Part shown: one piece after another, positions 37,726 through 62,606 of the stretch
How positions within the stretch are numbered: the stretch's first letter is position 1
How the letters are laid out: every line of letters starts with the position of its first letter
Assembly: GCA_001599915.1 (NCBI GenBank)
Contig: BCIG01000028.1
Coordinates: 124,001-188,000, forward strand
Direction of reading: 5' to 3'
Source: Symbiotaphrina buchneri
Lineage: Eukaryota > Ascomycota > Symbiotaphrinales > Symbiotaphrinaceae
DNA: 64,000 nt
Program-made: the position numbers and the translations under genes
Notes under the pieces: generated by a model
What the model saw: the letters and a program-made list of their open reading frames with translations, nothing else
The model's database searches: none
Told to the model about the DNA's origin: nothing

Positions 37726-40046
37726 ATGGAAGGTCATCGAACGGGTTCACGAGCGTCTAAACTCCAAGACGCAACTCCAAGGGTGGTAGCTTGTATCGCT
37801 TGTCAGAAACAGAAGGTGAGATCGTCAATCGAGAGCGTCAGGGGCAAGCCCGTGCACAATACTGATCGGTGGATTGCTGTAGGTCCGTTGTATCATGGCC
37901 AATGGCAACCCACCTTGCGTGCGCTGCAACCGCCGAAATGTAGCATGCAACTTTAAGAAGCCGCTCTCTGCTCATAGCGGCGACGACAAAACAAGGTAAG
38001 CTTCCTCGAAGAGAAGCACGAGTCTGGGCTAACATACCGAAGCCTCAGCGCTGCCCTCGCGCACGACCTGAGGGCCATTCACGCCGCAGTGAACGAACTT
38101 CGACAAAAAGAATCCTATGCGGCGCTTGAACCTCTTCTTAGTCTCCAACTCCTATCACAAACCCCGATGACATCTCTTGCAGTCACGACGGCGTCTGAGC
38201 CCTGCGAATCGACCCCAAGGAATGAGCGCCAGCAGTCTTATCCAGAAAATGAAAGTATTGAGAACGAGATGCTCGTCGAGCGATCACGCCGGCCCAGCTT
38301 CAGCGATGATGTCAATCAAGCCCCAATAAGCTCTCTATATCAGATCACGCACCTCAGAGCCCTGCAGTCCCAACAGCTGCCAACAACCCCTAGACGTATA
38401 AGTGAGCCGGAATATGCCCTTGATGATATCATATCTAGAGGCCTGCTTGCGCGATCAGATGCGGAGCAATTAGTCCAAGCACACCTTAGCCGTTCGGACC
38501 ACTACTTGTACGGGATTGCAAGCAAGTACCAAGACTTGGACAGTATTCGAAAAGGCTCGTCTCTCCTACTGGTTGCGATCTGTACGGTTTCGGCTCTACA
38601 ACAACCTTCCAGGCCGGACTTGTATCGCCTGTGCTATACCGAATTACGAAGACTTGTTTCCAACTTCGTGTTCGCCTCCAAACTTGATCTAGAGGACTTA
38701 CGAGGCCTATGCATAGCATGCTTCTGGATCAGCGATCTCTCATGGTCCGTTTCTGGGCTGGCAATTCGACGTGCTATTGAGGTCGACCTTCAAAGATCCT
38801 TCTATACTGTTGTTCAGCCTACGGCTACCAATGTAGAGCGACCATTGCCAATTGACGCCGCTACTCTTGGTGTCGCCATCGAGCGTGTGAGGCTATGGTA
38901 TCTTTTCTATATCTGCGACCAGCATTTATCAATACTTTATGGCCGGATGCCAACCCTTCGAAATCAAGATACAATACGCAATGCTAGTTCTTATCTGGCC
39001 TCGATGCCCGGTTCAGTTCCCGACATAAGGATTGTCAGTCAAATATCGCTGCTGCAAATACTCGGTGCGGTGTCGGAGCTGTTCGGACTGAATATTTCAT
39101 GTCGCGTTCCAGTTGTATTCAAATTCCAATTGGATGAATTCATTCGCCAACTTGATAGTTGGGTTTCCCACTGGCTGAATCGTTCTTGTGAGCATTTCCC
39201 ACAGATATGTTTGACTTGTGTTTGTCGGCGGCTGACAGTTCCATAGCCCTTCATCCGGTCGTCGGGAACTATCCGAGCAAAGCAGTCTCATTACATTTTT
39301 ACTTTGCAAAGCTTCATGTTTGTTCACATGTATTCCGAGGTCTCTCCTCTGACGCAACGGTCGACCCTATCCCAGTTGTTTTCCACGAAATAGCTCTCAT
39401 GGCTGTTCAGAGTGCAAAATCGATCATCGATCTCACGATTGGAGATCCCGACATCAAATTAGCCTTCGTGGGCGTCCCACATTACTTTCACACCATGATT
39501 GCCTACGCCTGCTCCTTTCTGCTCAAGACGGCACTCAAATATCGCGAGCATGTTAAGATAGATGTGGACGAAGCTCTTCAGATGATCAAGAAAGTTATAA
39601 AGTTATGCAAGGAGACGCAATGTGCGCAGTACCATCTGATCCACTGGATAGGAGAAGGCCTTCAGATTCTCTTATCGAGCTGTGTCAAGACTGTGTCGGT
39701 TGATGGCTTCAGACAGGATCAATTCAATGAGCAGCAAGTCGAGATGCACGGGACGATGGCGTCGTCATCGGAGTCATCGCAACAAAACCATTCACGCCAG
39801 ACCATAAACACAACGCAAGACCCTTCCGGCACATGGGATGCAGCCCGCCAAGCTACAATGCTTAATCTTAACAGCCATATATCAGGGACATTTGGCTACC
39901 CTGTCCCTGAAGGACTGCCAGGAACCATGGGCTATTCGGAGAGTGAGCTGAGTAACTGGCCTGGAAATCTTGCAACGGACTCGTGGAACCCGTCTGTGAG
40001 CCATCTTAACATGGATCATTTTGAACTCGGGTTAGGTCTTCTTTGA
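37726..40046 (+). CDS. Zn2Cys6 transcription factor with fungal-specific regulatory domain
   Basis: Exons 37726-37815, 37883-37995, 38049-39187 and 39247-40046 give 713 residues. The binuclear zinc cluster spans residues 23-52: C23-X2-C26-X6-C33-X8-C42-X2-C45-X6-C52, with intron 1 falling between Lys30 and Val31 inside it. The middle region (about 200-600) has the helical pattern of the fungal transcription-factor middle homology region (VAICTVSALQQPSRPDLYRL, RVRLWYLFYICDQHLSILYG, LHFYFAKLHVCSHVFRGLS). The C-terminus is Ser/Gln/Asn-rich, typical of an activation region. The third intron was set by phase: the acceptor at 39246 is the only one I found that keeps frame with a normal 59-bp length. 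It sits between an AT-rich island and a set of catabolic genes and is the natural candidate for their regulator (inference). Confidence 0.92.
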
Positions 40047-41194
40047 GTGTCCTTCGACATTACTTGGTGTCGTTAAGCTATCACATCGAGCATCGTTCAC
40101 ATATCTACGGATTCTGCTGCAAGGGGGAGACCTGCTACTCTCGAGGTGCTGATATAACATACACCAAACACTACCACCAAGTCAGAATCACACACCTGGC
40201 TTACAGGCCGGTCCAGAAGTTGCGACACCTACACTCGAGCATACCAGCCGGTGCTGGGTGACGAGCAAATTGCGATCTTATCGCGAGGCTTTCCTTATGT
40301 CGGTCAAGCTCACCGTCTGGAGAGGCAGCCAAGACAATGACATCGGCAATCTATCAGCTCGGACCGTACTGAGCTATCGAGAAGGACTATAGCCGCGACA
40401 CCTACCTAGTATCAGTACATCCGTCAAGATTGCGGTCGACCGATCACGGACTTTGCGCCAGCAGGTTGTTCACGACTCATCGGAAACCCTACAAGTGGTT
40501 CTAAAATGCCAGCCTCATAGGGCTCATAGCTTGATGCTGAGGGTGCCTGGTAGACCGATGTCGCGTTTGTAGTGTGACAGAGGGCTGTATCAAGTTTCAC
40601 AACTTGGACTGAAGTCTTAAAGTGTATATGGTGTCGTTGTAGCGACGTTGTACTGGCCTGACTGACGATATCATTGCTTCGTACAGCTCTGCGCATACTA
40701 AGAGCCTATAGGAATCGATCCATGAAAAACGTACGCAATATGGACGAAACAGCATACCGGGAAGATGAAGATATTCCAAGCAGAAAGATGAAGGATTGTA
40801 CAATATTTCATGGTCACAATATCCAAGTTGGAATCTGAATAAGCTTCCTTCATACCAGGAGGCTATGAACACGACCTACCACTTTATTGCAAATTCCAAT
40901 CATACGCTGCACGACTCCTGAAGGTTGTAAATTCTTCAATGTAGTTTTAATACAACTCCGCTTGAGCGCAACTGTGATTCCATCGCAACCCCATAACTAA
41001 ATTCGATTTCGTCTGCCCTTGTTTCGGACCTATTCCTAAAGGTTCCCGGACAACACATCTACCAAGTGAGCTGCATTCGAGGTGCAGCTACAGCAGCCAA
41101 CGCCACCCGTGCGTGGAGGTAGATGCATCCTCATAGTGCTGCTTCCACTCTACGCAATGGGCCAGAGAAAAAAAAAGGAAGATTTCGACCCCCG
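40047..41194. other. Convergent intergenic region
   Basis: Between the 3' ends of the regulator and lactonase genes. ORFs 40424-40696 and 40597-40872 (-) overlap in different frames and show no domain. Nothing supported. Confidence 0.5.
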
Positions 41195-42183
41195 TCATTC
41201 GTAGAAGGGTTTAGCATCGATTAGCCTATCGGCGGTTGGTTTATCATGCCCAAAGACTATCTCGGCATTGAAAACTCTCTGTAACCTGCGAATCATCTTT
41301 AGACTTCTTATCCAGGCATTGTGATCCCGGGCTAGAAAGCCATGCGGATGGTTCAAGTCATAGTTTTCGGAGACGTGGAACTGATCGGTGGTCCAGATGA
41401 AGGTCCCGTCCCTGTCGAGATTGACTTGCATGATACACAAGCCGGGTGTGTGGCCAGGCGCGTGGTGTAGAGTAATGCCTTGGAATAGATCCAGATGGTC
41501 TTCCGTAAATGTGTTCCAATTCAGCCCGGACAAATCCATGTAGTGCGGAACGTATACCCCGAGATCAGCACCGGTTCCCACCGCCCAGCAAGCATGTTTG
41601 AACTCCTCCTCGTGTACATAGATGGGAATATCGGTGCCGATGAAGTGTTCGAGACCGCCTGCATGGTCCGAGTGCAGATGGCCGAAAAGGATGGCTTTCA
41701 CATCTTTGATGTCATTTCCCGTCGCTTTGATCGCGTCTGGAAGTCGATGGCGGTCCTTGTACACTGTGCGAGGGAAGACGTCAGTGGCTGGTATGCCCCA
41801 GTGCTAGCACTTGTCAGTAGAGCAGGAGCGTGAAGCAACCGAAAATGCTCTACTCACCAGCTCCAGATCCTCGGCGCAGCCAGTTTCGTACAGGATGAGC
41901 CCTGCTTCCGGATGCTCTATCAAAGCGGCCAGCACGATCAAATCACGGATCTTGTTTTCGGGGTTAGGATTCGATTTCGTAGCGCTGTTGGCTCCTCGAA
42001 GAAGCCTGCCACCTTCAGCAATCGATCTCTGAGTAGAAAGCGACGCCTTTCCTACCATGCTTCATCCGCTTGCAGCGTCCCTAGATCGAGAATGTGCATC
42101 TTGGTTCCTGGAGGACATTTGAACGCTGGCACGCTCGCGCTTGTCAAGAGATTAGCCAGAATGCTCTCCGGTGCCTGCGCCAT
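41195..42183 (-). CDS. Metallo-beta-lactamase-fold lactonase (AHL-lactonase-like)
   Basis: Minus-strand exons 42183-42056, 42005-41858 and 41803-41195 give 294 residues. The metal site HLHSDHAGG (H-X-H-X-D-H) is near residue 125, followed by a downstream metal His in HHAPGHTPG, an Asp in WTTDQFH and the final His in VFGHDK. Fungal and bacterial proteins with this layout (MHILDLGTL start, ILYETG, YVHEEE, GHTPGLCIMQV) hydrolyse lactone rings or other cyclic esters using two metal ions. No signal peptide. It is convergent with the regulator. If the nearby Baeyer-Villiger enzyme makes a lactone, this is the obvious ring-opening enzyme, but that link is inference. Gene looks intact. Confidence 0.88.
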
Positions 42184-43355
42184 GGTGCGGGACTGTCTTT
42201 CGAGCTGGGCCACTGCCGATTACGTTTGTTAAAGAGGGTCGTCTGACGACCTTATCTGATCTCTTACGCATCACGCACTTCGCGTGACCAGCTTGGGGCT
42301 GCTAATTATGCTGCTTCTCATTTCCAGCATAAGGAGGGGGGGCGCGGGGTCCGGGCTGTCGGGGGAATCGGACGGGGAGAGAGAGGGAGGCGGGCCGGTG
42401 AAGGCACTTCAGCACACGTGGAGAAGCTGTAAAGGGTGTAATAGTATGCAGTACTATGAAATCAATGAAGGACTTAAGGTAGCGTGTAAGGTCCCTGTAG
42501 TCAGTGGTGGTAGAAGAGGAAGCGGGATAGATCTACAGTACTGATGAGGTTGCTTGCGGAGGAGCGAGCGAGCAAGGTCTCGCCAAAAAGTGCTCATAAG
42601 CGATGGTTGGACTCAGATCCTCAAACAGAAGTAAGGGGCAGCCCGAACCAACCACGACAGAGATCGTTTTCGTCGTGCTAATTAGACTTAAGGTAGCACA
42701 TAAAACAGTCGGAACGGGGCTTCAGGCGCCTTGTGTGCGATGCTTCGCGGCCTCCGGGCCCTTGGCCGTGAGCTGGGGAGCGGTCGGCATGGGGACGGAG
42801 ATCGAGCGTGGATGGATATTGATGTAGATGTGCTGGATAAAGTCGGCCTGTGGCCGCTCCTCGCCGCGCGCCGTGGCCTCGACGCCGAGCTGCTCTCCGA
42901 CGCGCTGTCGGCCGGCCATGCCCAGCTGCTCGCGACCCCGGCGGCGCCGCGTTCGCCGCGCGGCCCATGGGGCCCCACACGGTGCCGGGCATGGGTCGAT
43001 ACTCCGCGCTGGCTGCCCGACAACGACTTCGATGAGATGCGGGCCGGGCGAGCGGAAGCGGAAGTGGCAGGAGAGGAAGCGACGGCAGGACAGCGGCAAG
43101 AGGCCACGCGCTCATTTTCACTGCGAAGGCTATGTGTAGATACGACCTCGTCTACAAGCCGCCGACACCTTCGGTCTATCCAGGAAGCGCTACGTTTTCG
43201 CCTGCGAACCCCCCAAGACCAACGGCCGGGAAGACTTCCGTGATACACTTGCGCACGACCCGATTGCGACCTGCTCATAAGAAGGGCTGACTGACGTTAA
43301 CCCCGAGCCCGCCGAGCTTTTTCGTACAGATTGATAAGCCTCGGACGACGGGAAT
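42184..43355. other. Divergent intergenic region with a GC-rich segment
   Basis: From about 42720 to 43250 GC is clearly higher than in the surroundings and long ORFs are open on both strands (42731-43243 +, 42688-43278 -). The plus frame has protein-like stretches (WMDIDVDVLDKVGLWPLLAA, ELLSDALSAGHAQLLATPAAP), but I recognise no family, start or splice sites, so I leave it uncalled. The promoters of lactonase and MFS1 should lie in this interval. Confidence 0.35.
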
Positions 43356-43444
43356 GGGGAACAGACTGGGGAACAGACTGGGGAACAGACTGGGGAACAG
43401 ACTGGGGAACAGACTGGGGAACAGACTGGGGAACAGACTGGGGA
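43356..43444 (+). repeat. 12-bp minisatellite, seven perfect copies
   Basis: The unit GGGGAACAGACT is repeated seven times without change (43356-43439), followed by a partial GGGGA. It lies about 220 bp before the MFS1 start codon. Because 12 is a multiple of 3 the array is open in several frames, which explains the repetitive WGTD and SPVC frames; I do not take it as coding. Confidence 0.95.
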
Positions 43445-43659
43445 CCCCATGAACAGGTCCAAACAAACCCATCCCCGCTTCGTGACTCTATACTATTAAT
43501 ACTGCGGCGTCGTATTGCCGGCGGGATGGGAAGGCCTTATCGTCGTCGCTCTTGCTTAGCTTTCCACGTGTGCAAGACTGCAGTGACCCCTATTTCTCCA
43601 ACACTCGTACTTTCCTTTCCACGCTTCAGCTTCAGGTGTTGCCTTTCCAGCCATCCAGC

Positions 43660-45430
43660 ATGGGTCTGTTGACCAGTGATAGGATCCGGCCCGTGAATGT
43701 CCTAGTAAGTGCTATAGCCATCGAGGTGAAATCAAAGACAGTATACTGACAAGTCTAGATTGCGGCATTTGTGTCGCTTGGATCCTTCACCTATGGCTAC
43801 TGCTCGTCCATCATCGCGACTACTCTGGGCCAGCCTCAATTCTACGAGTACCTTCACCTGGCCCAGACTGGGACAGGACTAGCTCATACTAATGATATAA
43901 CTGGAGCGATGAACGGCCTTTTTCAAGGCGGTGGTATCTTTGGCGCCCTGGCTGCTGGGCCTGTGGCAGACAGGCTGTCACGTCGTGGATCTCTTATTGT
44001 GTCTTCACTCATATGCCTGGTTGGAGGTGCGTTGCAGTGCGGAACTGTGAATGTGGCAATGCTTCTTGTTGCAAGATTCATTACCGGTACGCCCAAGCTT
44101 CCAACTATTCATAAGAATCATTCCGGCTAAGTGACCATAGGCTTCGGAACTGGCATGATATCAGAGTGAGGTCTCTCCACCGCACTCTCGAGGTGTCTTG
44201 GTGGGCATGCACGGGGTCTGGATTTGTTGTGGTTATACCGTAGCAGGCTGGGTCGGATACGGCTGTTACAAGTACACTACCGCCTTTCAATGGCGATTTC
44301 CACTTGCTGTCCAATGCTTCGCTCCCGTAATGCTCCTCATTGGGGTGTGGTTCATTCCTGAAAGTCCACGTTGGTGTAAGTGTCCTACGTGCTTCTGAGC
44401 TGATGGAGAGATTGCTCCGAACGAAAAACTGACAGAGTCATAGTATGTCTGCGAGACAGACACGACGATGCTTACCGTGCAATGGAATACCTTCACCACG
44501 ATCCAAATGACCCGCAACAAACTTTAGCTAAGCAAGAATTCTATGCACTGCAGAAGCAGATCGACTTGGACAGTATTCACGGGAACGGCTCCTACAAAGA
44601 ACTTTTCACTGTCCCAGCGAACCGAAGACGTGTCTTTCTCGGCTTCGTGATCCTTTTCGGGGCGCAGTGCACAGCTACTATTGTCATCAACAATTATGGC
44701 GTGAGCCTCTACAGTGCGCTGGGCTATGAGCCTCCAACTACTCTGGCATTCACGGCTGGCTGGGTTACTGTTGCCGTTGGAGGAAATGCAATTACGGCCC
44801 TGTTCGTGGATCGATTCGGCCGGATACGATTCCTTCGTAAGTATTTTCCCGCTTTTGACCTCGTCCCAAGGTTCCTGACGGATATTCCTCGCTGCAGTGA
44901 TCGGCTTCACTGGATGTCTGATTGCCCTAATCATGGAGATGTGGTTACTAGCCGTCTACCAACATACGGACAATAGATCGGGGCAGGCTGCCGCCGTAGC
45001 GTTTCTCTTCATCCACGTTGGATTCTTCAGCAGTTGTATCGACGCCAACACGTATATCTACTGTACTGAGATTTTCCCAAGCCATCTCCGTGCTAGAGGG
45101 TCCTCGGTATCGGTCAGTGGCTTGTTCTTCGCCACCGTCATCTTTACTTGCGCTGCGCCGACTGCCTTCGGAAAAATTGGCTGGAAGTACTACCTCGTCT
45201 TTGCAATTCTGTCGGCTATCATGATCGTCCTTCTTTGGTTCTACTTTCCCGAGACCAAGGGGCTGTCCTTGGAGGAAATCCATTCTCTATTTGGAGAGTC
45301 CGTTGCTGTAGACACCTCCCAACTAAGCGAGGCAGACAGGGAGGCTTTTGAAATGGGAATCTTGGAAGAAAAGAACAATGTTGCTGGTGCCACCGAACAT
45401 CATGAGCACACTACCCAAACTATTGGCTGA
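43660..45430 (+). CDS. MFS sugar-type transporter with interrupted frame (possible pseudogene)
   Basis: Exons 43660-43704, 43759-44086, 44141-44375, 44444-44836 and 44898-45430. The parts are those of the sugar-porter family (12 membrane helices): LGSFTYGYCSSII in helix 1, ADRLSRRGS in loop 2-3, EVSPPHSRG, PESPRW, DRFGR in loop 8-9 and PETKGLSLEEIHSLFG at the end. In exon 3 the frame runs FGTGMIS and meets TGA at about 44166, while the right continuation (YQSEVSPP) sits one base off. Compared with MFS2 in this window, about seven residues are missing at that point, consistent with loss of roughly 20 nt. No splice choice I tried repairs it. Either the gene is a recent pseudogene or the assembly is wrong here; the rest is intact. 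Would move sugars or similar solutes by proton symport. Confidence 0.8.
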
Positions 45431-48400
45431 TTGACTGCAAGATGAGAGATGAGTCTACGTGATGGGAGAGATGATATAGTATCGAAATTTCATAATATGT
45501 ATAATAAGGCGAAAATGTTGGCTCATGTCATGTAGATAATATGTTTATAAGTTTCATGAAGCAACCTAGAATAGCTGATCTTACCTGGGTAAGTAATTGA
45601 TGTAATTGCCTTACTATATGAAAGACCTTTAAAGTGACCTACCTACTTTGCTAAGTATACTGTATAATCTTGAAAAATTTGTAAATAGGCTAATGGTTAG
45701 CTATAGCTTGGTATTAAACCTATTCCCATCTATATCACATTACCTTTCTATCTAAAGCTTGCAATTATAGCTATTTTTAACTGTTGTAACTAATAGCTAT
45801 AACCTTTATAAAATAATCAGAAAATCATAATATTGTTTATAAATAATTTTAAATTTATCTATCTATCTATCTACCTATTTAATTAATTAGATATAATTTT
45901 AGATTACTTTAAATCATATTATTTTAAGATAAAAGCTATATATAAACTGTAACATTATATTCTATCTATATTAAATAAATTTACCAGGATATCCTTTTTT
46001 AACTATATTAGAAACTATTTTAAATAGGTTAAAATAGCTGATAAAAATCTTATCAATTGTCTGATTAGTTGGAATATAGGAGAAATAATATATTATAGAG
46101 TTATAACAGATAGTTAAAAGTAGAAAAAGTAGAATTCTTATCTTAATTGTTTTTAAATATAGCAACTAAAAATTATAAAGTAATAATAAGATTAGATTAT
46201 ATAGGTTTTATTAGTAAATCTTATATAAAGTTAATATAATAAAATTGAAGTTCTTTTTATTTAATCTATAATAGTTTTTATAACTATAACCTGTATTTAT
46301 ATAATAGTTATTCTTATTAGGTTTTTTATCATTGTTTTTTAAATTTTTATAACAGTTAAAACAGATATTACAATTGTTATAACTGTTATTATAACTGTTA
46401 AAGTTATAGTTTTATTATATGTTTTTAACTGTTATACAAGTTTTTTTTTTCTTTTTATTAAAAAAGCTTTTGATTTTTTAATCTTTATACAGCTATTATA
46501 ACTGTTTACTGTTAAGTTTATTATAATTATTTTAGAAAAGCAAATCCTTATATAATATAGTATATTCTTTTTAATTATCATTGTTTAAAAGCTTTATATA
46601 ATCAGGTAATAATATAATAAGCTTTTTAACTATTTTCTAATTAATAAAGTTAATTATTAATACAAATATATCCTTGACTTTAATAAGATAATTATCTTTT
46701 CTATCTAGTTAAATACTGATTTTATATTCAATAAAGATCTTTATAATTAACTTAGAATTTATAGCTAATTTAATAAAAACAGTTATAATTATATAATTTA
46801 TTATAATCTGCTGATTAAAAATAATCTACTTTTATATCTGTTTTATAATAAACTTCTTTATATATAACTTTATTTCTTTTTATAAAAATTGTTTAAATAC
46901 TTTATTAATAACAGTATTAAAAAGTTGTAAAAAGCTTATATAATTACCTAGAATCAGTATAGTTAAAACTTTTATTATTTAAAGCTTTTTTAAAACTATA
47001 AAAGTTTTATAAAAAGTTATAAAATTTATAATTAATAAGCTTTTCTGATTTTTTATTACTAATTAAAACTCTTTTTCTATTTATTGTAAAAATAATTATT
47101 TATTATTATAAGTAGTTTTATTGACTTTTATAATAATTTAAAGATTGTAAAGATATTGTTCTTTAGCTAGAATTTGACTTTTTAGATCAGTTACTCTATA
47201 GAAAATTAATTTAAATAGAATTTAAATAACTTTATTAATCTAGATATAGATTACTAAAGTTATCTGTTGTTTATTCTATTTAAAATGTTTTATTTTATCT
47301 AAAACTGTTTTAGCTTTTATAAAATTATATATAAAGCTATTTAAATATTTAAAAGATATAAGAGTTTTATTTAGATTTATAATTACTAATAAAAGATATT
47401 AGTTTTAACCTTTTATAACATGTTTAAACAAGGTAAAAAGTTTTAATAATTAGGAATTATAACAAACAAATCAGAAAAACCTATTAACTAGCTTATAGAA
47501 TTCTATAAAGAGTTTTAAAGCTTATTTAATAATTCTTTAATAACAGATTCTAAATCAGTAATAAAAATTGTAAAACTATTTTATAAAAAAGATAAAAACC
47601 TTTTTACAATTAGAATAAAGCTTTATAAATAGCTTTTTAGCTTTTTTTTTAAATTAACTATAATAAACTAATTGATTAATTACTTATTGTAAATAGAATA
47701 GTTTAAATAGCTTCTTTTTACACTTTAACTATTAATTAAACTATTATAGGTAAACTTTTTTTATTACTAATTAGTTATTATATGATTTCTTTATAATTTT
47801 TTTTATTAATTAATTATCATCTAATAAAAGATTTTCCAGAATTAAACAGTTTTTTAAAAAGTAGAAAATTGATAAAAATAAAAAACCCCTGGTAAAACCT
47901 TTATCTGATTAATTAAAAGAACCTTTTTATAGGTTTTATATAATTTATCAGCTTATATATAATAATAGATAAGAAATAAGATAACTTTAAGCTTTTTTTC
48001 TTATAAATATAATCATTTAATATATATAATAGGTTTGTTATAGATTTTAAATAGTTTGATTTTAATCTATATATTTTCTAGTAAATTACAAGGTTTTAAC
48101 TATATTCTCATTGATTTTACCTAGGAAAAACATGGTAAAACCTAATTAGAAATTGTGATTATTAATTTGTATAAAGTTTATTATAAGATTTCTAAATTCC
48201 TATTTTTTAACTAGATTAAATTATATATTAATAAAGATTTATTTTAATATTAATAAAATCTTATTATCTTTTAAACCAGTTAGATAACTATAGCTAACTA
48301 TTAGTTTATTAAATTTTTTAAAAATTATATAGTATATATAGATTCTAATCCAGTTTTATACTAATTTAAAAAGTTATTTTACATAATATTTAACATAAAG

Positions 48401-49080
48401 TAGATATATTTATATATATAATTATCATTAACCTGATTTTATCACCTTTATAACATATGCTTTTAACCTGAAAGAATTAACTACCTGTTATAATTTATAA
48501 TAACAATAATATATACTTTATAAAGTAATAATATTATAATCTATATCTTTTATACAAGGTTAATCTTAGATTTAATATAAAGTTTTATCTATTATAAAAT
48601 CATTATTAATATTTCAGACCTTTATATCTTAATAGATTTAAAGATGTTTTCAAGAGAACACTTTAATTTACCCATTTGTACTAATAACTTGATTCTAACA
48701 AGGTCAGTAAGTATAAAGTGACTTAGCACCTAAGGATCCTGTTTTATCATTTTCTGTTATTCTGACTTCCTTGCTGAGTAACAAGGTTCATTATATGCTA
48801 ACAACGTTCTGACAAGCTACTAGATCTGTAAGACACATGTAGTAAAATCTGGAAAAGAGATAATTCTTACTTTGAGATTGGCCCTGAGATTGGCCCTGAA
48901 TGATGACCAGATATTGTTAAATGTCCTTTAAAATCTCATGATTTCATGTGGCATGCTGTAGGAAGGATCAATTTGTGTTTAATGATCACTTTTAATATAT
49001 ATGAACCTTGTTACACCAGGTACTCGGATACTCTACTCTGTCGTTCCACAATATTGAAATTGTTGCAAATTGTCCCAGAC
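45431..49080. repeat. Second AT-rich island, RIP-like transposon relic
   Basis: Composition falls from about 45480 and recovers between 48640 and 49080. Most reading frames are closed; the one longer ORF (45971-46165, -) is low-complexity. Texture is the same as in the first island, so a RIP-mutated repeat is the likely origin. A Cys/Asn-rich stretch near 46.33-46.45 kb (-) hints at a gag-type zinc knuckle, but I cannot assign a family or find paired terminal repeats. Simple TCTA repeats lie near 45858-45880. It separates two MFS genes. Confidence 0.7.
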
Positions 49081-49145: not shown

Positions 49146-51091
49146 TTAAACCTCCTTGAGCTGAATAGATTCTAGGTGGACCCCATGCCCTGCTGCAGAG
49201 GTAGTAGAATCAACCTTTGAACCAAGTCCCTTTTCATCAGACTCATTAAAGTGTGTAACATCCAATGTTCTCGCGATTCTTTCATCAAATGCCTGTCTAT
49301 CTGCCTCAGGGAGATGAGACAAGTCAATGGCCACCTTGTCACCAAAAAGTGTTCCAATCTCCTCAAGACTATGTCCCTTCGTTTCTGGGAACTTGAGTAT
49401 GATCAGAGGAAGCATTGCTGAAGTTACAATGATGAACACAAGGTAGAACTTCCAGCCGATATCGTTGAAGGCCGGACCTGCAGCCGTGGTGTAGACTAGA
49501 GCCCGGATTTTAAAACGTGCTTCTTATCCAAGAGAGAGTCTTATACTTACTTGTAGTCACGAGGAAGAGACCTGCAATAGAGAAACCGACCCCTTGAGCC
49601 CGAATGTTGGTTGGAAAGATCTCAGTACACTTCAAGTTCGATATTAACTTAGTAGTTCAACAGGGTCTTTGAGTTCAACACGTACATGGACATAACTTGA
49701 TACATCCAACCCCGATCCATAGAACGTCACGAACAGGAACGTAAACAAGACACCCATGGCAGATCCAACCTTGTTCGTATTGTCAGGACCACCGTAATTG
49801 GCAACTAGAGTAGTCACGATTATGATACAGCAGATACAACCAATCTAGAAGTAGGTCAGCGGTTTGCATACGGTTCTATGGGGAAGAATGGAAGGTACTA
49901 GGCAAGTGATCATGACAGGCTTTCGTCCGAGACGGTCCAATACCAACGAATTAATGAAGTTCAAAATAGCCGCCCAGGTGTTGTACAGAGCTAAAAGCAT
50001 GAGTGGAAGCGAGCCGGAGAGTCCCAAGCCAGTGAGTTCAGTAACCTGTTTGGACTAAGTCTCTAGTCGGAAGACCACGATTTTGTTGACGGGCAGCTTA
50101 CCATGTAGTTGGTCATGACTAATACACCAGTACTCTGTGCACATGCTTGAACCCAGAAGCCGTAAAGCAAGCGCGTACGATACGATCTGATTTTCATAAT
50201 TTGCCAGAGGTTGCCGACTTTGTTTACTCGATCAAGAGCGAGTTGTGTCTGGATCTGAACAAACTCCTCCCTAGCACCTACATGAGTAGGATCTGCTCCA
50301 TTCTCGTGCAACTTTTGAAGGATCTCAAGTCCTGTAAAATCGTGTCAGGCGGAATTTATTGACGGAGTGCAAGCTTCCAAACCCACCTTCTTGGTCGTGG
50401 CCTCTGTCGATGAGCCACCTGGGCGATTCGGGAATCCAAGGGCTGCCGATACATAACAGGAGCGGTGCTACACACTGAAGAGCGACCAATAGTCGCCACT
50501 GGATTGTTGGGTTACTTTCGTAATAAGTTCCGAAGCCGCACCAGCCTGAAACAGCCTGAGTGCCAACGTCAGATTTGACATGTTGGCATGCATAACAATC
50601 AAGTGGTAACTCACGTATGCACAGCATATGACGAAGCCATGGGATCCCACGACTCTTCCTCTTTGGTTCGCCGGCGAGATTTCCGAAATGTACGTCGGTA
50701 CTGCGCAGTTGATCCATCCTACGGAGAGACCATTAAGGGCACGGAAGGCAAGGAACATTCCAATCTGTACAGATCCGGCCTGGAGTGCTGCGGATACCAG
50801 ACAGCAGAGGGCTGAGATCTGGATGGCTCGTTTTCGACCCAACTTGTCCAGCATCCAGAAGACAGTGAGAGCTCCGATTACACCAGCACCGGCATAGCCG
50901 CCATTGCTGGCACCGATGATAGACGAACCATAGGTAGTGTCTGACTCAAAGTCAAAGTATTCAAAGAACGAAGGCTGGCCAATGACCGAGCCGATGATGG
51001 CGGAGTTGAAGCCGTAGGTGAAGGATCCAAGAGTGACGAAGAAGGCAACGGCGAAGTTGTAACGATTCGCCTTGGCTCTTTGTATACCCAT
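49146..51091 (-). CDS. MFS sugar-type transporter
   Basis: Seven minus-strand exons: 51091-50615, 50555-50387, 50331-50102, 50045-49899, 49844-49686, 49629-49551, 49495-49146, giving 536 residues. Sugar-porter signatures: LGSFTYGFNSAIIG in helix 1, LDKLGRKRA in loop 2-3, PTYISEISPANQRGRVVG, WIPESPRWLIDRGHD before the central loop, LVLDRLGRKPVM in loop 8-9, and KFPETKGHSLEEIGTLFG at the C-terminus. Plasma-membrane proton symporter of hexose or related solutes by family; substrate not readable. It is divergent from the monooxygenase gene with about 1 kb of shared upstream DNA. The stop codon lies only about 65 bp from the recovery point of the AT-rich island, yet the frame is undamaged. The Met at 51091 precedes the first helix directly. 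Confidence 0.93.
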
Positions 51092-52121
51092 GCTGGCTGA
51101 TGGCGCCTCAGGTGCACGGAGTGAAATGATGAGAACAGAAGTATAGCAAGAAGATGGTGCAAGATTAAATGGGTCGCAATTGTGTGAATGTATAGATGTG
51201 ATCATATGACGTTCATACGTAGGCTTTATACGGCAGGCAGGGCAGGTAGATGAGCTGAGGGAACCTGGTAACTCTCGGAACAAGCAACTTGTGGGGTCCC
51301 CAGTCCTCCACAGACAACGAGATAGAGTGAGGCCGGACCCGCCGATGCCCAGGCCGATGCGATCACAGCCAGAAGCTGCCGCGTGTCGAGGACATACTTG
51401 CCAGTCCACGGCGGGCGAAACATGGAGAGGGTATCATCGGGTCCAGATTTTTGGCTCCTCCAACGCCCAAGCGCTCGCTGCAAAGGGGATAGAGTAGACT
51501 AGAGAAGGCTCCCTGGTGTGGACTGTGAAGACTCAGTCCTGCGGGTGGGTGTATGGAGATGGCGCGGTCGGGCGGAAGATGCCTCGTCACCCTAGAGCGA
51601 ACCATATCACTGGTCAACTATGTACGCGTCTGCTACTATGTACTGCTCACACCCCTCCCCCCATATATGCATGTGCGCAAGTATTCTCCTGCATGCGGCG
51701 CCCGCTAGCAGGGAGGTGGTCGAGGGGCACGGCACTACGGAATGGATAGACTCGGGCAAGGTCGCCGACATGAGACGTGGAGATGGTGCGGGGGAAGGCG
51801 CGTTGGGGCATGTCGGCGAACGGCCCGTAGTCCCATGCAGCCACCGCAGTAGCGCCCTAATATACCCGGCCCTGCCTCCCCGACTGCCCGCATCCTCGCC
51901 GCCGCGCCAATGCCCTTGGCAATGATTGGCGAGGTGGTGGGATGGAGAGATGAGGCCATCCGATGGATAACCCCCCACAAATGCAGCCAGCCGCCCGCCT
52001 CTGACCTTTGTTTGCTCAGAACGCATATCATTGTGACCCAGCTACTTGTCATCTCCGCCTGGCTCCATCACAGACACTTTTCAAGTCGACGTAACCTGAT
52101 ATCAACAGCAACGGTTTCAAC
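51092..52121. promoter_or_regulatory. Divergent MFS2/BVMO promoter with TCGCCGA inverted pair
   Basis: A perfect 10-bp inverted repeat, TCGCCGACAT at 51762-51771 and ATGTCGGCGA at 51810-51819, with a 38-bp spacer, lies between the two start codons. The core TCGCCGA recurs before several neighbouring genes. ORFs on both strands in this interval overlap and show no domain. Confidence 0.55.
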
Positions 52122-54168: not shown

Positions 54169-54830
54169 AAGAAGGATATACCTTCGGCCGGAGGCAAGAA
54201 TCAGACCTCCATACCCTCTGAATAGATTTGATTGTTGTATATTTCAGGGCCGTCCTCATGAACAACCCCAGGAAAGTTCTATATAGATGAATTGAAAAAA
54301 AATGCCGTCCTCTGACACGAGTCACTGACTGGTACCTATGGAGGGTGGTTGTAATATGATGAAATGATCAGTCCTTGAATCCTAGTCGGCCTTACAATCC
54401 ATGCTTCTCTCCTGTGCAACCGAATACATCTAGGGTAGGGTGATTTTCATGGGCCTGTGAATAACAGGCATATACGGCTTGGATATACGGTTTCGTGATA
54501 TGTGTCTTGCAGACTTGTGAGGGGTAACGCGACAGATACTCCAGTTAAAACACGTCTTCTCCCGCCTAATATCGACTACACTTCAATTTGACTACTGAAA
54601 TGCCGAGGTTGCCGTAAAGCTATTCGGGCATACCCATAGATTTTTTTTATTCGTCACTTCTAATTTCCTTAATTTCAACTGCCAGATCCGTCTTGGCAGG
54701 AGCTACGAAATCACTTCAAGGAAACTCTCTTTAGATGCCGATAAATCTAGATGCTTTCATTCCAGGGATGTAATGGACTGATAGTAATTCTCAAAGTCAG
54801 GTTCATTAGTACAAGATGCACTCTTCTATA
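54169..54830. other. Convergent intergenic region
   Basis: Between the 3' ends of the monooxygenase and SDR genes; moderately AT-rich; ORF 53966-54325 (-) is a shadow of the monooxygenase. Nothing supported. Confidence 0.5.
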
Positions 54831-55746
54831 TTATTTCGCACAGAATCCCCCATCAACAGTGACAGATGTGCCCGTCGTGAACGTATTCTGAGGAGCTGCC
54901 AAGAAAAGGATCGCAGCATCAAGGTCGTTAGGATGACCCCATCTTGCTGCCGGGGTCCTGCCCATCAGATAAGAATTGACGACTGGGTCTTTCGCATACA
55001 CATCGTTCATTGTGGTCCTCACAAATCTGATGTTAATCAGTCAAGGGTGTGTAGGATACGCAGGATGGGAGGGGGCCCATGCACATAAGAGGATAAAGAT
55101 AGCTTACCCAGGACAGAGGCAGTTGACTTGGATCCCCCTGCTGGCCCATTCATTACTAAAAGCTTTGGTCATCTGTACCACTGCCGCCTTGGTCGTCGAG
55201 TAAACGCTGGTGTTCATGTTGGCTTGGAATGCTGTTACCGATCCTATGTTTATTATCTTCCCGCCATGATCTGAGGACAACAGTTTCCGTCCAAATTCCT
55301 GGCATGAGACATAGATCGCTTTTAGATTGATATTGATGACCTGTAACAATTCCCGTTTAGAGAGCCGGAGGTTTAAACAGTCAAATGCTTACAAAATCGA
55401 TGTCTTCATCAGTGACATTCTCGCAGAGGTTCCGCCGTATCACACCAGCGCAATTGACTAGTATATCTGGTACAATCCCCGCCTCCCAGATTGACGCGAA
55501 GCAAGCACGCAGTCCCTTGGTATCGCTTACGTCGCAATGAAACGCTCGGAAGGCACTGCCACTGTCTGTAACCGACTTCTGAAGAGCAGCGGAGTTTTGA
55601 TCATTGGGGAGCTCAATAGAGACAATCGAAGCTCCAGCTTTAGCAAGCGCGAGCGTCATTGACGAACCCAAGCCTCCCGTAGCACCAGTCACAATGGCCG
55701 TCTTACCCCGCAGGGAGAACATCTCTTGCAGATAATCTGCTGTCAT
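54831..55746 (-). CDS. Short-chain dehydrogenase (2-deoxy-D-gluconate 3-dehydrogenase/KduD-like)
   Basis: Minus-strand exons 55746-55393, 55340-55108 and 55026-54831 give 260 residues. Cofactor loop TGATGGLG follows FSLRGKTAIV; then CDVSD, LVNCAGVIRR, the catalytic Ser in NIGSVTAF, Tyr and Lys in YSTTKAAVVQMTKA, QVNCLCPGFVRTTM, and the end TGTSVTVDGGFCAK. The overall pattern (FSLRGKTA start, ASRGIQVNCLCPG, GHPNDLDAAILFLA) resembles sugar-acid dehydrogenases of the KduD/gluconate type, oxidising a secondary alcohol with NAD(P). Substrate not proven. It is convergent with the monooxygenase and divergent from the DUF3237 gene. The Met at 55746 is preferred over an upstream non-ATG start. Confidence 0.9.
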
Positions 55747-56322
55747 GGTGAAGAAGGGCAAAACGAATGCTTCTGCAGCATGTGATCAATCGCCAATGGA
55801 GTCACTTGCGATCTGTACCTGTGTTCACTGTCAGAGCAAAGTCACTTTCGCGTTGGACAGCTCTCTTATAGCGTCATCATTAAGGACCGCCGGAGATCAG
55901 CTAACTGATTCGCGATATCTGACCCCACCTAGCTGGACGCCGGTCGCCGACCAGCGATCTCGGTCGGTGTCGTGCGGTGGAGGCCATGGACTAACTTCTT
56001 CTCGGCTTATCATGCCCCTCCGTCTACCCCGCATCAAGTTGGCACCCATCGGACCGAGCAGGCTTCCTCAGCCGCGACGGAATGTTCGGCGAGATTTACT
56101 TCGATATCTTGTGACACGAGCATGCCTAATGCCTTTTTAAAAGAACAGGGGACTCTCGTGGAGCTAGATACAGTTGTCTTATGCCCAGAGAGAAATACAG
56201 ATAGTCGCGTCAAAGAAAGTATATCCCGCGTGACTTAACACAACCGCGGCCATTTTCTTGCCCGTCCTACGAAACTGCCATAGACATTATCAAAATACAA
56301 GGCCAGCTTCGCTACAGCTACC
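55747..56322. promoter_or_regulatory. Divergent SDR/DUF3237 promoter with TCGCCGA motif
   Basis: TCGCCGA occurs at 55944-55950 inside GGTCGCCGACC, about 200 bp from the SDR start and 375 bp from the DUF3237 start. No gene is supported here. Confidence 0.45.
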
Positions 56323-56983
56323 ATGGCTCCTACACTCGAGCTCTGCTTCACAATGCGAGGATACATGGGCAAAGAGAACGTCCTTGATCTTAAGACCATC
56401 AAGAGTGGGCCAATCAGAGGCATCACGCCAATAACACATGGCTTCGTGGAAGGATCGGGCTTGAAAGTAGAACTTATACCTGGGGGNNNNNNNNNNNNNN
56501 NNNNNNNNNNNNNNNNNNNNNNNNNNNNNNNNNNNNNNNNNNNNNNNNNNNNNNNNNNNNNNNNNNNNNNNNNNNNNNNNNNNNNNGGGGGGGGGATTGG
56601 ATTCTGGTACGTGTTCAAGTTATGATGACTTGATGCTCTAGGAGTAAGGCCTCATTTCTGATGTTGGATAGTTCGATCCTGCCACAAAGGTGTCACACCT
56701 AGACGTCCGCACCCAGGGTCGAACGGCCGACGGTCACAGTCTATACATTCATTACACTGGAATTTTGAAGGTTGATGAGGCAGGCAGAAAGGTCTTAGAA
56801 TTTCAACCTGGCGCGAAAACCACGAACTATGGGGACCATGAATGGTTTTCAGGGCCAATTATGGAGACCAGCGATCCGAAGTTCAAGTGGGTTGAAACGA
56901 CGCTGTTTGTGGGCCAGGGACACTTCGTGGTGGATGAGGGAGGCTCCGCTGTAGAGTATGAGATCTACAAAGTTACCAATTGA
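56323..56983 (+). CDS. DUF3237-family protein, with assembly gap inside exon 1
   Basis: Exon 1 is 56323-56606 and exon 2 is 56672-56983, separated by a 65-bp intron (GTACGT...ATAG). Exon 1 reads PTLELCFTMRGYMG, IRGITPITHGFVEGSGL and KVELIPGG, then a G run, 100 Ns (56487-56586), another G run and DWIL; exon 2 continues FDPATKVSHLDVRTQGRTADG to EYEIYKVTN. This is the order of DUF3237, a small beta-barrel family of unproven activity often found beside oxidoreductases in catabolic gene sets. In the family a short Gly-rich turn joins the two flanks of the gap, so probably few real bases are missing. The 100-N gap is the standard placeholder for unknown size. No signal peptide. Confidence 0.85.
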
Positions 56984-57428
56984 ATGCATTTTGATCGCAA
57001 GCTGCAAGAAGTATCTGCTTCCAATTGTGAGGTGGATGCCTGTCCTACATTACCCAACGGTGCTTCAACAATTATGGGTTCCGCGAGAAGGCGAAGCATT
57101 CCACGACAAGGAGAGTTTAGGTACGTAGGTAGGTACTGGGTCATGATTCGGACTTAGGGGCCGCGTCCAACGATACTACTAATAGCGCAAATACTAATCC
57201 GTAATTCTGTAGTGCGTGTGGGCGTGCTTGACCGCGGGGCTAACCCCGCCCCCTCCTTCCCCATGGCCGACCCGGACACGCCGACATACTCGGCCCACTT
57301 GACCGGCGGTTCATGACTTCGCCGACGCAGGTACGTTCCGGCTACTCATAAAACGACACTTGGAGCTTTCAGCAACGGGACCTTTCAGCAACGCAAGCAG
57401 TGTCGCGAATTTAGACTGGGCTGCAGCT
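56984..57428. promoter_or_regulatory. Cyclase-gene upstream region with TCGCCGA motif
   Basis: TCGCCGA at 57319-57325 (in TTCGCCGACG) lies 104 bp before the cyclase ATG, and CCG-N7-CGG lies at 57281-57293. No gene is supported here. Confidence 0.45.
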
Positions 57429-58786
57429 ATGGACGTCGTGGATAAGCTCTTTCCCAGGGGTCTGCCGACCTTGGCTGAACTCGAAGGGTTTAATGCCGGG
57501 AAAAACGTACCAGCGGAAACTGCATGGATCTGGGGGAAGGATGATGAGGTAGGTGCAGCGCAGAAGACGAAAAGTCCGAGGACAGAGCGTTTCTGCTTTC
57601 CTGTGTAACCTGTAGCAGACTGCTAATCTGTTATGCACTTGATCAAGCTGGGTCGAATCAACCTTCTCACACCTGCCGTTACTCAAGCAGCGAAAGAAAG
57701 TGATCTTCGTGATGGGACAACTGTATCCCTCAAGCAAGGCTTCATGATCTCAGACATCTCCTAGTAGACTGACCAGCTTAGTTGGTCTCTTGCCCTACCG
57801 AAACATCCCTCCTTCCATCGACATGCTGTGAAGCACACGATCTCAGTTCATCCATTTAATCCCTGTATCTTTGACGACTTCTATGATATGAACACACAGT
57901 CAGGTAGCCAGTGGGACGGGTTACGCCATTTTGGACATCTAGGGATCCAGCGGATGTATAACAATCTCAGCCCCGAGGAGATTTATTCCGGTAATTGCAG
58001 CTGAGCTCCATCATACTGATACTCCCTTGATGCTCTATGCTCACTCTGATAGGCACTCGTTGTGGGATACAGGCAGTATCTAAACATGGAATTACGGGTC
58101 GAGGAGTACTGTTAGACCATTACTCTTGGGCTCAGAAGCATGATCGCGCTTATGATCCATTCTCTGGACATCAAATCCCAGCAACCGAACTCAGAGAGGT
58201 TGCGAAAGAACAGCGCGTTGAATTCAAAGTCGGCGATATTTTACTTATTCGAAGTGGCTATATATCCAGATACAACGAACTACAGTCGTCCGACCCCGAT
58301 AAGCTGGAGGATCTGGCAAAGAACCCATGTTTTGCTGGAGTTGAGCAAAGTGAAGATATGAAAACGTTTTTGCATGATTCGTGAGTATAGATGCAATTCC
58401 TTTCAATTCAGCGGCTAATTCCTAGAAGCTACTTTGCGGCAGTTGCAGGTGATGCGCCTGCATTCGAAGCCTATCCACACAAGACAGAGTGGCAACTGCA
58501 TGAGTTCTTACTAGGACTTTGGGGCTGCTTGATAGGAGAAATGTTTGATCTCGAGGTTGGTGTCTTTTGCGCATCTCCCTACTGAGGAGGTGAAGCTGAT
58601 CAGGGTCTTTTTCCGGAGTAGGCATTATCGACAGAGTGCGAGACGAGGCAGCGCTGGTCCTTCTTCTTTACAAGTGCACCCTTCAACGCACCAGGTTAGA
58701 TGTTCATCACCAATCAGATGTTTGAACTAACACGTCCCTGCACAGGCGGTATCGCAAGTTTCGCAAACGCTCTCGCCATCTTTTGA
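57429..58786 (+). CDS. Cyclase-family metal-dependent hydrolase (kynurenine-formamidase fold)
   Basis: Seven exons, 57429-57548, 57648-57733, 57782-57990, 58053-58380, 58426-58555, 58622-58694 and 58746-58786, give 328 residues. The family hallmarks are WIWGKDDELGRINLLTP, the metal region GSQWDGLRHFGHLG (fungal form of HXGTHXDXPXH, keeping Asp and His), GVLLDHYSW, VGDILLIRSGYI, and AAVAGDAPAFEAYP, with the end WSFFFTSAPFNAPGGIASFANALAIF. Bacterial relatives hydrolyse amides, lactones or cyclic diones with a bound metal. Intron 2 (57734-57781, 48 bp) starts with GCAAGG, a GC-AG intron; only this choice keeps the conserved VSLNWSL in frame. The first ATG in the open frame with good context is 57429; a non-ATG extension exists upstream. 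Codirectional with the DUF3237 and HisD-like genes. Confidence 0.88.
57734..57781 (+). other. GC-AG intron in the cyclase gene
   Basis: Donor AA|GCAAGG, branch-like TGACC shortly before the acceptor GCTTAG. Phase agrees with both neighbours and no GT donor nearby does. Confidence 0.75.
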
Positions 58787-59593
58787 GACTTGAGACCTCC
58801 TGGAGGCCAGGAGAGGTCTGGCGGCCACCTGCAAAAAGTGCCACTATGCTAAGTGCGAGCTGTGTTATATGAGAACATATTATCGTGTCTTGCTTGAAGA
58901 GGAGGAGCTGAACGATGTCTTTTTGCGTATTCTTCCATAACAGCATGGCTCCTCTGCATTCTCTTCGTCTAATTCGTGTGCCTAAAGTGGTTAGGCAGCC
59001 CTGGCTTTGCTGACAAGGCAATCGAACATTACTTATGCATAAGACTTTCTTTCTCCGCTCTCACATAATTGCATAATACACTATCACGAAAGACATTAAG
59101 CGTAGTTTCGAAGTAGCTTTCGCCGAGCACTTCGGACCAACGCTACTGTGCTTGGAATCTAGAGCGTCCCGCAGGTGAGGCCTGACCCTACCCTGTCCGA
59201 GCACCCTCCACTCTCCGAGGTTAGCGCGAAGTCGTGACGATCTCGAGCCCCGAGGTTCGCCGATGCATTTGCGGCGAAGGTCGGCGAGGCAGCTATATCC
59301 TAGTATGGTGGACGACGACGTGCATTTCAGACCCCTCGTCGCTCCAGGCTACTCCTGTAGTCATCCGCGCGTTGGGCGGGGCGGCTCTCTGGCAGCTGCA
59401 GCAGGTGACCCTGCCTTCCGGTCGCCGGCGTTGCAAGCTCTAGATCGTGGCTCCAAAGTTCTAACCCTAGGCAATTTCCGACTAGGAGATTGTTCCTGGA
59501 AGCACTGCGTCATATTTTCCGTATATATTGAAAATTCTTCCGCTACTTTTCAAGGCTTCTGAGATTCACCTCATAACATCGTCCGTAGCCGCG
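58787..59593. promoter_or_regulatory. HisD-like gene upstream region with paired TCGCCGA motifs
   Basis: TCGCCGA at 59257-59263 (+) and its reverse complement at 59281-59287 lie about 310-335 bp before the start codon; between them is the imperfect palindrome CGCCG-N9-CGGCG (59258-59276). No gene is supported here; ORF 58707-59021 (-) has no motif. Confidence 0.45.
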
Positions 59594-61070: not shown

Positions 61071-61364
61071 AGCTAAAATCTCTTATAATTGCATCTGTAC
61101 ATAATTGATAATGTACAAGCAATGCCAATAATTTGCTGGCCCTTTATGTACCTGAGCCGCAGCTGAAGAGTAAAGATGAGATAAACTGTTTGCTTCGATG
61201 ACTCGCAACTTATGTATGCGGGTGATACATTTGCATCTATAGTAACTATAGATATTACTGAAAGGCCATCCACCCTTTCTCTCCTCATCTAACCGGATTG
61301 ACTGCAGAAACAAATCAACAGAGTTACGAATCTAACGGGGTGCGTCAATGTCGTAACCGTGTCC

Positions 61365-62426
61365 TCAAAATGTCAGTTTAGCCTGCTCAAATAAAGCCAG
61401 CAATATGCCTCCACCTGGAGCCAGCCTCAGCGCTTTTGGTTTTAATCCTTTATACCAAGCACCTATTCCTTCATCTTTGGCAATATTGATGAGCATTCGA
61501 AATGTATTCGGTAGTTTGCCGCCCCTCTCGAGTTGTATATTCTGTACTCGTGACTTTATAACATCGAATGGAGTGTTTAGTACAGTGCCAACTAAACCAC
61601 CTGAAAATCCCGCCACTAAATCAGTGCCGGCTTCCTGAAGTCGAGTTGAGGGCACCGGCGCAACCCTTCGCACTCGGTATATAGTGCCAAAGTATCCGGC
61701 GCTCCAAATGCCTTGGCTAGGAATGATGATCAGCAGGTGAGGAGATTTGATGAGCCACCTGTCCTGGAACCGGACTGCAAAGGTCTTCACATACCACCAG
61801 ACAGTCGCCTGTATTCCCTTGGCGAACGCCAAAGGACCTTCATTGCGCAAGGTCTTCCTAAAACAGTCCGTTGAAGAGGAGAATCTGGCCACATTCTTCG
61901 CGTCTTGCATTCTGATCTTGATCTTCTCGAACGGTGCAACGATGGCCGATTCCACAATGCCACCGCACGCCCCAGCTATGATGGAAATACTCTGAGTCAC
62001 ACTTGATGCCCCTGTTAAAGATAGGAGCACCGGAATGACCGTGTCATTCGTGGCAAACTTAGCAGCTCTTGCACGAGTCAGCAAGGCATGAGCGCTCTGC
62101 ACACAGTCCATACCTCTTGGGAGCCTCCATGCATATCGGTGGAACAATGCCTCGGTATAGTGAACGAACGCCTCCGGTCCGCACGATGTCCTTCACGCTC
62201 TCAATCACTCCCAGATTCGTCTTGTCGACCTGAAGCATCTTGCGCGTCTTGACCTGCATTCGAAAGCTACACATCAGCATGCCACCCTCCATTCTTGAGC
62301 CCGCGCCATTGGAGTTACACTTACAGTATCCAGGGGATACATGATCAGGATCTCTGTGAGGCCTGCAGCCCCACCGGCGAGCACAGCCATGTGGCCAGCG
62401 ACCTGCTTTCTAGGAGGACGAGCCAT
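61365..62426 (-). CDS. Mitochondrial carrier, 2-oxodicarboxylate (ODC) type
   Basis: Minus-strand exons 62426-62325, 62253-62114, 62067-61795 and 61716-61365 give 288 residues. Three carrier signatures are present: PLDTVKTR (residue 31 on), PFEKIKIRMQ and PFDVIKSRVQ, each at the end of an odd-numbered helix. GVRSLYRGIVPPICMEAPKR and AKFATNDT match the 2-oxodicarboxylate carriers (yeast Odc1/2), which exchange 2-oxoadipate, 2-oxoglutarate and related diacids across the inner membrane. The N-terminus is short (MARPPRKQVAGHMAVLAGG), so an extra upstream exon is possible. Intron 3 (61717-61794) was placed by phase; reading through it would add 26 residues in the middle of a helix. In this context it may carry the diacid end product of the neighbouring pathway (inference). 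Confidence 0.88.

Positions 62427-62602: not shown

Positions 62603-62606
<4 letters not shown>

Follow-up and report, generated by a model that had tools for sequence, protein, structure and literature searches.

Do ten adjacent genes of the ascomycete Symbiotaphrina buchneri serve a single catabolic pathway and, if so, which enzymes lie at its centre? The genes were found in a stretch of 64,000 nucleotides (hereafter the window), corresponding to positions 124001-188000 of contig BCIG01000028.1 in a genome of 23.4 Mb and 82 contigs. They extend over positions 37726-62426 of the window, from the start codon of a regulator model to that of a mitochondrial carrier model, and a first-pass annotation had read them as a cluster built around a Baeyer-Villiger monooxygenase (BVMO) and a lactonase. 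Taken as a whole, the region does hold a cluster of catabolic type, largely intact, equipped with its own regulator and transporters, for which bacteria offer a partial precedent. Our preferred reading, to which we give a probability of about 45%, is that its core would be a bacterial-type oxidation module, consisting of a KduD-like short-chain dehydrogenase/reductase (SDR), a protein of the 3-hydroxyacyl-CoA-dehydrogenase (3HCDH) family and an HpsN-like dehydrogenase. The three corresponding genes are:

54831..55746, minus strand: KduD-like SDR, 260 aa, 3 exons, motif YSTTK; adh_short_C2, 169.2 bits
59594..61070, plus strand: HisD/HpsN-superfamily dehydrogenase, 443 aa, 3 exons, with GGRYPLLASAHMT and GDKVIGTNH; Histidinol_dh, 456.9 bits
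16208..17194, minus strand: 3HCDH-family protein, carnitine-dehydrogenase-like, 328 aa, single exon; candidate pathway member

The HisD-like dehydrogenase and its bacterial neighbourhoods

Against solved structures, the HisD-like protein of the window scored 366.9 bits with HpsN (sulfopropanediol 3-dehydrogenase) and 263.5 bits with E. coli HisD. It passes the NCBIfam hisD model TIGR00069 (447.5 bits for a cut-off of 243.8) and misses PRK13770 (239.8 bits for a cut-off of 647). According to the accessible part of PMC11382572, HpsN has the motif G-R-Y-A/S-H, in which His126 binds the sulfonate, and HisD the motif G-S-A-P-L; in HpsN, Glu318-His319 are catalytic, and Gln248, His251, Asp352 and His411 are zinc ligands. 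These catalytic and zinc-binding residues are conserved in the window protein (within QAEHG, SEH, GDK and EGHARSGD), as is the equivalent of Lys353, and the enzyme is presumably an NAD-dependent zinc dehydrogenase. At the diagnostic position, it reads GRYPL, which is the fingerprint of neither HpsN nor HisD; because of this replacement, it is, by motif, a third branch of the HisD/HpsN superfamily.

Relatives of the protein are encoded in 136 bacterial stretches, the best 80 of which were kept (52-69% identity, loci up to ~17 kb). In all 80, the best relative displays PGG[RK]YP[LM], followed by ASAHM (AGAHM in two of them) and GDKxIGTNH, and the HpsN motif was present in none of the 82 aligned sequences. 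As for its distribution, the combination of PGG[RK]YP[LM]xASAHM and GDKxIGTNH is found in Actinomycetota, Bacillota, Pseudomonadota and Acidobacteriota. A second HisD-superfamily gene of locus L018 (44% identity), devoid of both motifs, was left out of the 80. In a tree with long outgroups, from which 17 near-duplicate loci were omitted, the window protein stands beside, not inside, the Actinomycetota rows, at the end of a long branch and with open forks near the root. A recent transfer from a sequenced bacterium is not supported, since the tree places the fungal protein outside the Actinomycetota set. The S. buchneri genome itself possesses one stand-alone HisD-like gene, its other match being a 540-residue frame on contig 14, of HIS4 type as judged by eye; given this separate HIS4-type match, a role in histidine biosynthesis was set aside.

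The genes surrounding the 80 bacterial relatives were then searched, using as seeds the window proteins and the DUF3237 protein of locus L048. An SDR occurs in 68 of the 80 loci and a PF04199 cyclase in 20, belonging to three lineages (18 Streptomyces-type loci, L051 and L062). The 3HCDH family is present in nine loci, from three phyla but few lineages (four are Bacillota), and a metallo-beta-lactamase (MBL) gene in two, or four by iterated search. Densities of the cyclase and DUF3237 families were obtained from the genomes of 38 of the 80 loci: with 89 cyclase matches in ~209 Mb, ~0.26 would be expected in the 38 loci, vs. four observed (two of them in Streptomyces). For 3HCDH, 27 matches scoring 60 bits or more across ~157 Mb lead to ~0.2 expected in the 80 loci vs. 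nine observed, the 29 genomes used being those of 29 loci picked to include eight of the nine with a 3HCDH match. Thus, both families lie near the bacterial HisD-like gene more often than genome density predicts.

The families also combine with one another. SDR, 3HCDH, MBL and HisD-like genes are found together in L003, L004, L045 and L056; 3HCDH adjoins the SDR in L040, L041, L043, L044, L045 and L056; and six of the eight best bacterial matches of the fungal SDR lie within 3HCDH loci. In L051, the SDR, cyclase, HisD-like and MBL-superfamily genes stand in a row. The repeated association with SDR and 3HCDH genes gives an indication of the pathway in which the branch works. Because of this co-occurrence, and because the single 3HCDH gene of the window lies to the left of the ten-gene run, the cluster is probably centred on the SDR, 3HCDH and HisD-like module, not on the BVMO, and extended leftwards. 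A BVMO homologue was found in none of the 80 bacterial loci, which leaves unproven the earlier proposal that the cluster is built around this enzyme; the BVMO was accordingly rejected as pathway core. Concerning the joint role proposed for the ten genes, the SDR, HisD-like, lactonase-like and cyclase genes are echoed by bacterial loci and the BVMO is not.

The 3HCDH protein reached 169.9 bits with the NCBIfam L-carnitine 3-dehydrogenase model, below its equivalog cut-off of 592. Its gene has no close second copy in the genome, the other match being weak (24.4 bits). It lies 42 kb from the HisD-like gene in a genome of 23.4 Mb, a proximity with a chance of ~0.4%, as computed after the link had been noticed. 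Because two single-copy genes are found so close to each other, and because their families co-occur in bacteria, the 3HCDH gene probably belongs to the same pathway as the ten-gene run. The metabolic block at ~15-21 kb to which it belongs had been missed by the first-pass annotation, and the cluster probably extends further left than then described. Three other genes of this block may belong to it as well:

15085..15573, minus strand: SDR, possible member; first exon of the model
18896..19270, plus strand: alpha/beta hydrolase fold-3 protein, possible member; open frame
20140..20703, plus strand: SDR, possible member; main exon of the model

Other genes of the run, upstream motif and AT-rich islands

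The ten families listed by the first-pass annotation were all recovered at 37726-62426, from spliced models and Pfam matches over the curated cut-offs. An automatic gene finder trained on the window broke several genes or left them without a model, so hand-made exons were used, predicted from the splice consensus, with short introns, and from homology read by eye. Eight models are uninterrupted, the two exceptions being transporter 1 (frame break) and the DUF3237 gene (assembly gap). No further gene was recognised between the ten, the gaps being judged by eye only, and the run is flanked by AT-rich sequence at both ends. Its adjacent pathway-type genes, accompanied by a regulator and transporters, correspond to what defines a fungal catabolic cluster. 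Besides the SDR and the HisD-like dehydrogenase, it contains:

37726..40046, plus strand: Zn2Cys6 regulator, 713 aa; exons 37726-37815, 37883-37995, 38049-39187 and 39247-40046
41195..42183, minus strand: MBL-fold lactonase-like hydrolase, 294 aa, 3 exons, motif HLHSDH; Lactamase_B (Pfam), 51.4 bits
43660..45430, plus strand: sugar transporter 1, in two readable parts; Sugar_tr, 230.9 bits (3' part searched)
49146..51091, minus strand: sugar transporter 2 (TR2), 536 aa, 7 exons, reads through; Sugar_tr, 269.8 bits
52122..54168, plus strand: type I BVMO, 569 aa, 7 exons; FMO-like PF00743, 51.2 bits (cut-off 22)
56323..56983, plus strand: DUF3237 protein, two exons; DUF3237, 87.5 bits for the 3' part (cut-off 24)
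57429..58786, plus strand: PF04199 cyclase-family hydrolase, 328 aa, 7 exons including one GC-AG intron; Cyclase, 42.3 bits
61365..62426, minus strand: mitochondrial carrier, 288 aa, 4 exons; Mito_carr, 189.2 bits, family level

The regulator matches Zn_clus with 25.7 bits (cut-off 21) and Fungal_trans with 18.8 bits, under the cut-off of 23. The lactonase named in the earlier description does have an MBL fold and its nearest relatives are N-acyl-homoserine lactone (AHL) lactonases, with 6cgy as best solved relative (119.5 bits), but it stays far under the NCBIfam equivalog cut-offs for lactonases (124.1 of 475 bits for AhlS, 83.1 of 375 for AiiA and 77.6 of 390 for AttM). Similarly, KduD is indeed the nearest solved relative of the SDR, above HpsO (131.4 bits), but the protein misses the TIGR01832 equivalog cut-off (226.7 vs. 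338.85 bits). The BVMO fingerprint FXGXXXHXXXW is present as predicted, in the form FKGELLHSAAW. Further BVMO-like genes were seen elsewhere in the genome, two on contig 2 (345404-358443), ~10 kb apart, and another on contig 32.

Transporter 1 is broken at ~44150-44160, where a short stretch is apparently missing in comparison with transporter 2 (by eye), either by deletion or through an assembly error. A tandem GGGGAACAGACT-type repeat was noticed by eye upstream of this gene, at 43355-43440. The DUF3237 gene is interrupted at 56487-56586 by an assembly gap of 100 N within a G run. Upstream of the carrier gene, there is a long pure C run at ~62560-62603.

The heptamer TCGGCGA occurs eight times in four upstream regions (2858 bases in total), those of TR2/BVMO, SDR/DUF3237, the cyclase and the HisD-like gene, compared with a background density, determined over 200 kb of S. 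buchneri sequence, of 0.17 per kb:

51762..51819: two copies, at 51762 and 51813, upstream of TR2 and the BVMO
55944..56092: two copies, at 55944 and 56086, between the SDR and DUF3237 genes
57319..57325: one copy, upstream of the cyclase gene
59120..59287: three copies, at 59120, 59257 and 59281, upstream of the HisD-like gene

Single copies were also found upstream of the 3HCDH gene (17416) and of one SDR (19803) of the left block; none was present in the tested upstream regions of the regulator, lactonase-like and carrier genes. The set of four regions was chosen after looking. When these were shuffled and all k-mers counted, eight copies of any 7-mer appeared in 1 of 1000 shuffles and five of any 8-mer in 3 of 1000; in a repeat with eight regions, the top 7-mer was reached in 4 of 500 shuffles and the top 8-mer in 6 of 500. 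The shared motif is a hint that the TR2, BVMO, SDR, DUF3237, cyclase and HisD-like genes may be co-regulated.

The GC content of the window is ~50%, except in AT-rich islands of 15-18% GC (~22-37 kb and 46-48.6 kb). The dinucleotide ratios of these islands are 1.23-1.26 for TA/AT and 0.55-0.59 for (CA+TG)/(AC+GT), with a CpG ratio of at most 0.05. Such ratios are the usual signature of repeat-induced point mutation (RIP). A frame scan of 22000-36800 and 46000-48600 found no N-free stop-to-stop frame of at least 90 aa, and a dinucleotide scan of the gene blocks between the islands detected no RIP-type bias. The largest island separates the left block from the remaining genes:

22000..36800: AT-rich island, 16.8% GC, RIP-type bias

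Beyond the right edge of the window, AT-rich sequence continues as far as ~197000 of contig 28 and is followed by core-looking genes (by eye).

Proposed pathway and rival explanations

From the observed genes, families, motif differences and bacterial co-occurrence, we infer the reactions, their order, the substrate and the joint regulation of the genes. The sugar-type transporters would import a polar substrate, whose lactone would be opened by the MBL-fold hydrolase. The SDR and 3HCDH enzymes may oxidise secondary hydroxyls, and the HisD-like enzyme would, in a two-step reaction like that of HisD and HpsN, yield a carboxylate from a terminal CH2OH that neighbours a hydroxyl. The resulting acid would be decarboxylated by the DUF3237 protein and the acid product taken into mitochondria by the carrier. 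The cyclase-family hydrolase and the BVMO may belong to a side branch of the pathway, or use a ketone that the SDRs produce.

The decarboxylation step comes from characterised members of the DUF3237 family. In the accessible part of PMC12607616, PinX of Novosphingobium, which contains a DUF3237 domain, is identified by mutant feeding as a lariciresinoate decarboxylase; it shares 42% identity with PhcG and 38% with PhcF, both decarboxylases (PMC12997858, as far as available, agrees), and the decarboxylation by PinX and the Phc enzymes comes after a CH2OH to COOH oxidation (PMC12607616). A HisD-superfamily enzyme would be expected to catalyse the same oxidation. The window protein carries the DUF3237 domain of the PhcF/PhcG/PinX family, an assignment valid at the family level only; control searches found the family also in unrelated bacteria, and a single-sequence structure model of the L048 protein, intended for a fold comparison with phenolic acid decarboxylase, was of low quality (mean predicted local distance difference test score, pLDDT, of 37.6). 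The pathway of the first-pass annotation, reasonable in outline, lacked this decarboxylation, had probably the wrong centre and set the limits of the cluster too far to the right.

Concerning the substrate, the bacterial contexts diverge. In an Aurantimonas locus (L045, 447-13460), the HisD-like relative is surrounded by PdxA, DUF1537-type (SBD_N/NBD_C), MBL, 3HCDH and SDR genes, and, as judged by eye, also by LacI-like genes and genes for a sugar ABC transporter, which suggests a four-carbon sugar acid route; in L041, a GntP-family permease gene lies nearby. Both contexts point to sugar acids, and a sugar lactone or aldonate-like substrate is slightly favoured over an aromatic one. A more specific version, in which the third branch moved into fungi and, as part of an SDR/3HCDH/HisD-like module, turns terminal alcohols into carboxylates that in this fungus would feed the DUF3237 decarboxylase, thereby creating a new oxidative chain-shortening of a plant-derived lactone or sugar acid, is conceivable but doubtful.

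Several observations weigh against the oxidation module as core of a single pathway. BVMO, sugar transporter and carrier had no match in any of the 80 bacterial loci, and DUF3237 was matched in one only (L048, the seed itself); set beside its presence in 11 of the 38 genomes, this count has little weight. The fungal SDR has at most 37% identity with its bacterial partners, its best solved relative being KduD; SDRs are common genes, and the density comparison covers the cyclase and 3HCDH families. The link with 3HCDH was spotted first and counted later, and a large RIP-type island splits the proposed gene set. As for TCGGCGA, 19 of 1000 (7-mer) and 67 of 1000 (8-mer) sets of random genome stretches do as well, which makes the motif weak once corrected. 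Finally, two bacterial contexts point to aromatics. In a Novosphingobium locus (L070, 1463-13512), the HisD-like relative has ring-cleavage genes on both sides, of LigK type on one and of LigA/LigB type on the other, and the LigK and LigA matches exceed the NCBIfam cut-offs; in a Streptomyces locus (L012), it has nearby FAH- and catechol-dioxygenase-type genes, both under the cut-offs, and a FAD_binding_3 monooxygenase-type gene.

These two contexts are among the arguments for an aromatic or lignan-type catabolism, in which the HisD-like enzyme would oxidise the gamma-CH2OH of a phenylpropanoid dimer, DUF3237 would decarboxylate the product and the BVMO would turn an aryl ketone into an ester. 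The lignin-dimer decarboxylases of the DUF3237 family, acting directly after the CH2OH-to-COOH oxidation in the available parts of PMC12607616 and PMC12997858, agree with it, as does a lichen fungus with a DUF3237 gene four genes from an FMO-like gene, in the portion of the source at hand. However, no stilbene dioxygenase, ring-cleavage dioxygenase or aromatic hydroxylase was found among the modelled and searched window genes, the window transporters are of sugar type, and the pin/phc oxidation is carried out by glucose-methanol-choline (GMC) oxidases, not by a HisD-like enzyme (PMC12607616, same part). We consider this explanation unlikely.

Rather improbable too is a loose neighbourhood of unrelated accessory genes gathered in a RIP-rich region, with the BVMO, transporters and carrier as bystanders. 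The AT-rich islands around and within the gene set would fit such a history, as would the frame break of transporter 1 and the absence of bacterial matches for the supposed bystanders; the proximity of the single-copy 3HCDH and HisD-like genes, the gene row of L051 and the upstream motif common to several genes argue the other way.

Catabolism of 2,3-dihydroxypropane-1-sulfonate (DHPS) or sulfoquinovose, with the HisD-like protein as a fungal HpsN and the SDR as an HpsO-like partner, was set aside as very improbable: HpsN is the closest solved relative, the Lys353 equivalent is kept and HpsO is among the SDR matches, but the sulfonate-binding His126 motif is replaced by GRYPL, no sulfonate-specific gene occurs among the modelled and searched genes, and the SDR scores higher with KduD than with HpsO.

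Likeness to known systems

HpsO and HpsP are the SDR partners of HpsN in DHPS oxidation. Like this bacterial module, the window combines an SDR with a zinc dehydrogenase of the HisD superfamily that is presumably NAD-dependent; unlike HpsN, the window enzyme lacks the sulfonate-binding His and has GRYPL...AHM, and lactonase, DUF3237, cyclase and BVMO genes are present in addition. With PhcC/PhcF/PhcG and PinY/PinX, as described in the accessible text, the window shares a DUF3237 family member alongside an enzyme, putative in the window, for CH2OH to COOH oxidation, whereas the oxidase is there of GMC type and no stilbene-cleaving dioxygenase is found among the modelled genes of the window. Among fungi, the Fusarium FDB1/FDB2 clusters for benzoxazolinone degradation similarly combine a Zn2Cys6 regulator, a major facilitator superfamily (MFS) transporter and an MBL-fold ring-opening hydrolase; the FDB1 table, in the part of the source available, comprises amidases, a dienelactone hydrolase and a salicylate hydroxylase, without the BVMO, HisD-like and DUF3237 genes of the window. 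A fungal pathway with exactly this gene set was not found described in the open-access papers searched.

By its score, the window protein passes the hisD cut-off, but motif and gene context suggest a different function. The annotation "histidinol dehydrogenase" may therefore be misleading and conceal a branch of catabolic enzymes in many bacteria and some fungi. The oxidation module would also lend a testable chemical logic to the fungal cluster and its DUF3237 gene. In Aspergillus nidulans, AN2723, compared here by annotation alone, is a HisD-annotated gene listed with a 2.7-fold value in the NapA conidia table of the available part of the source.

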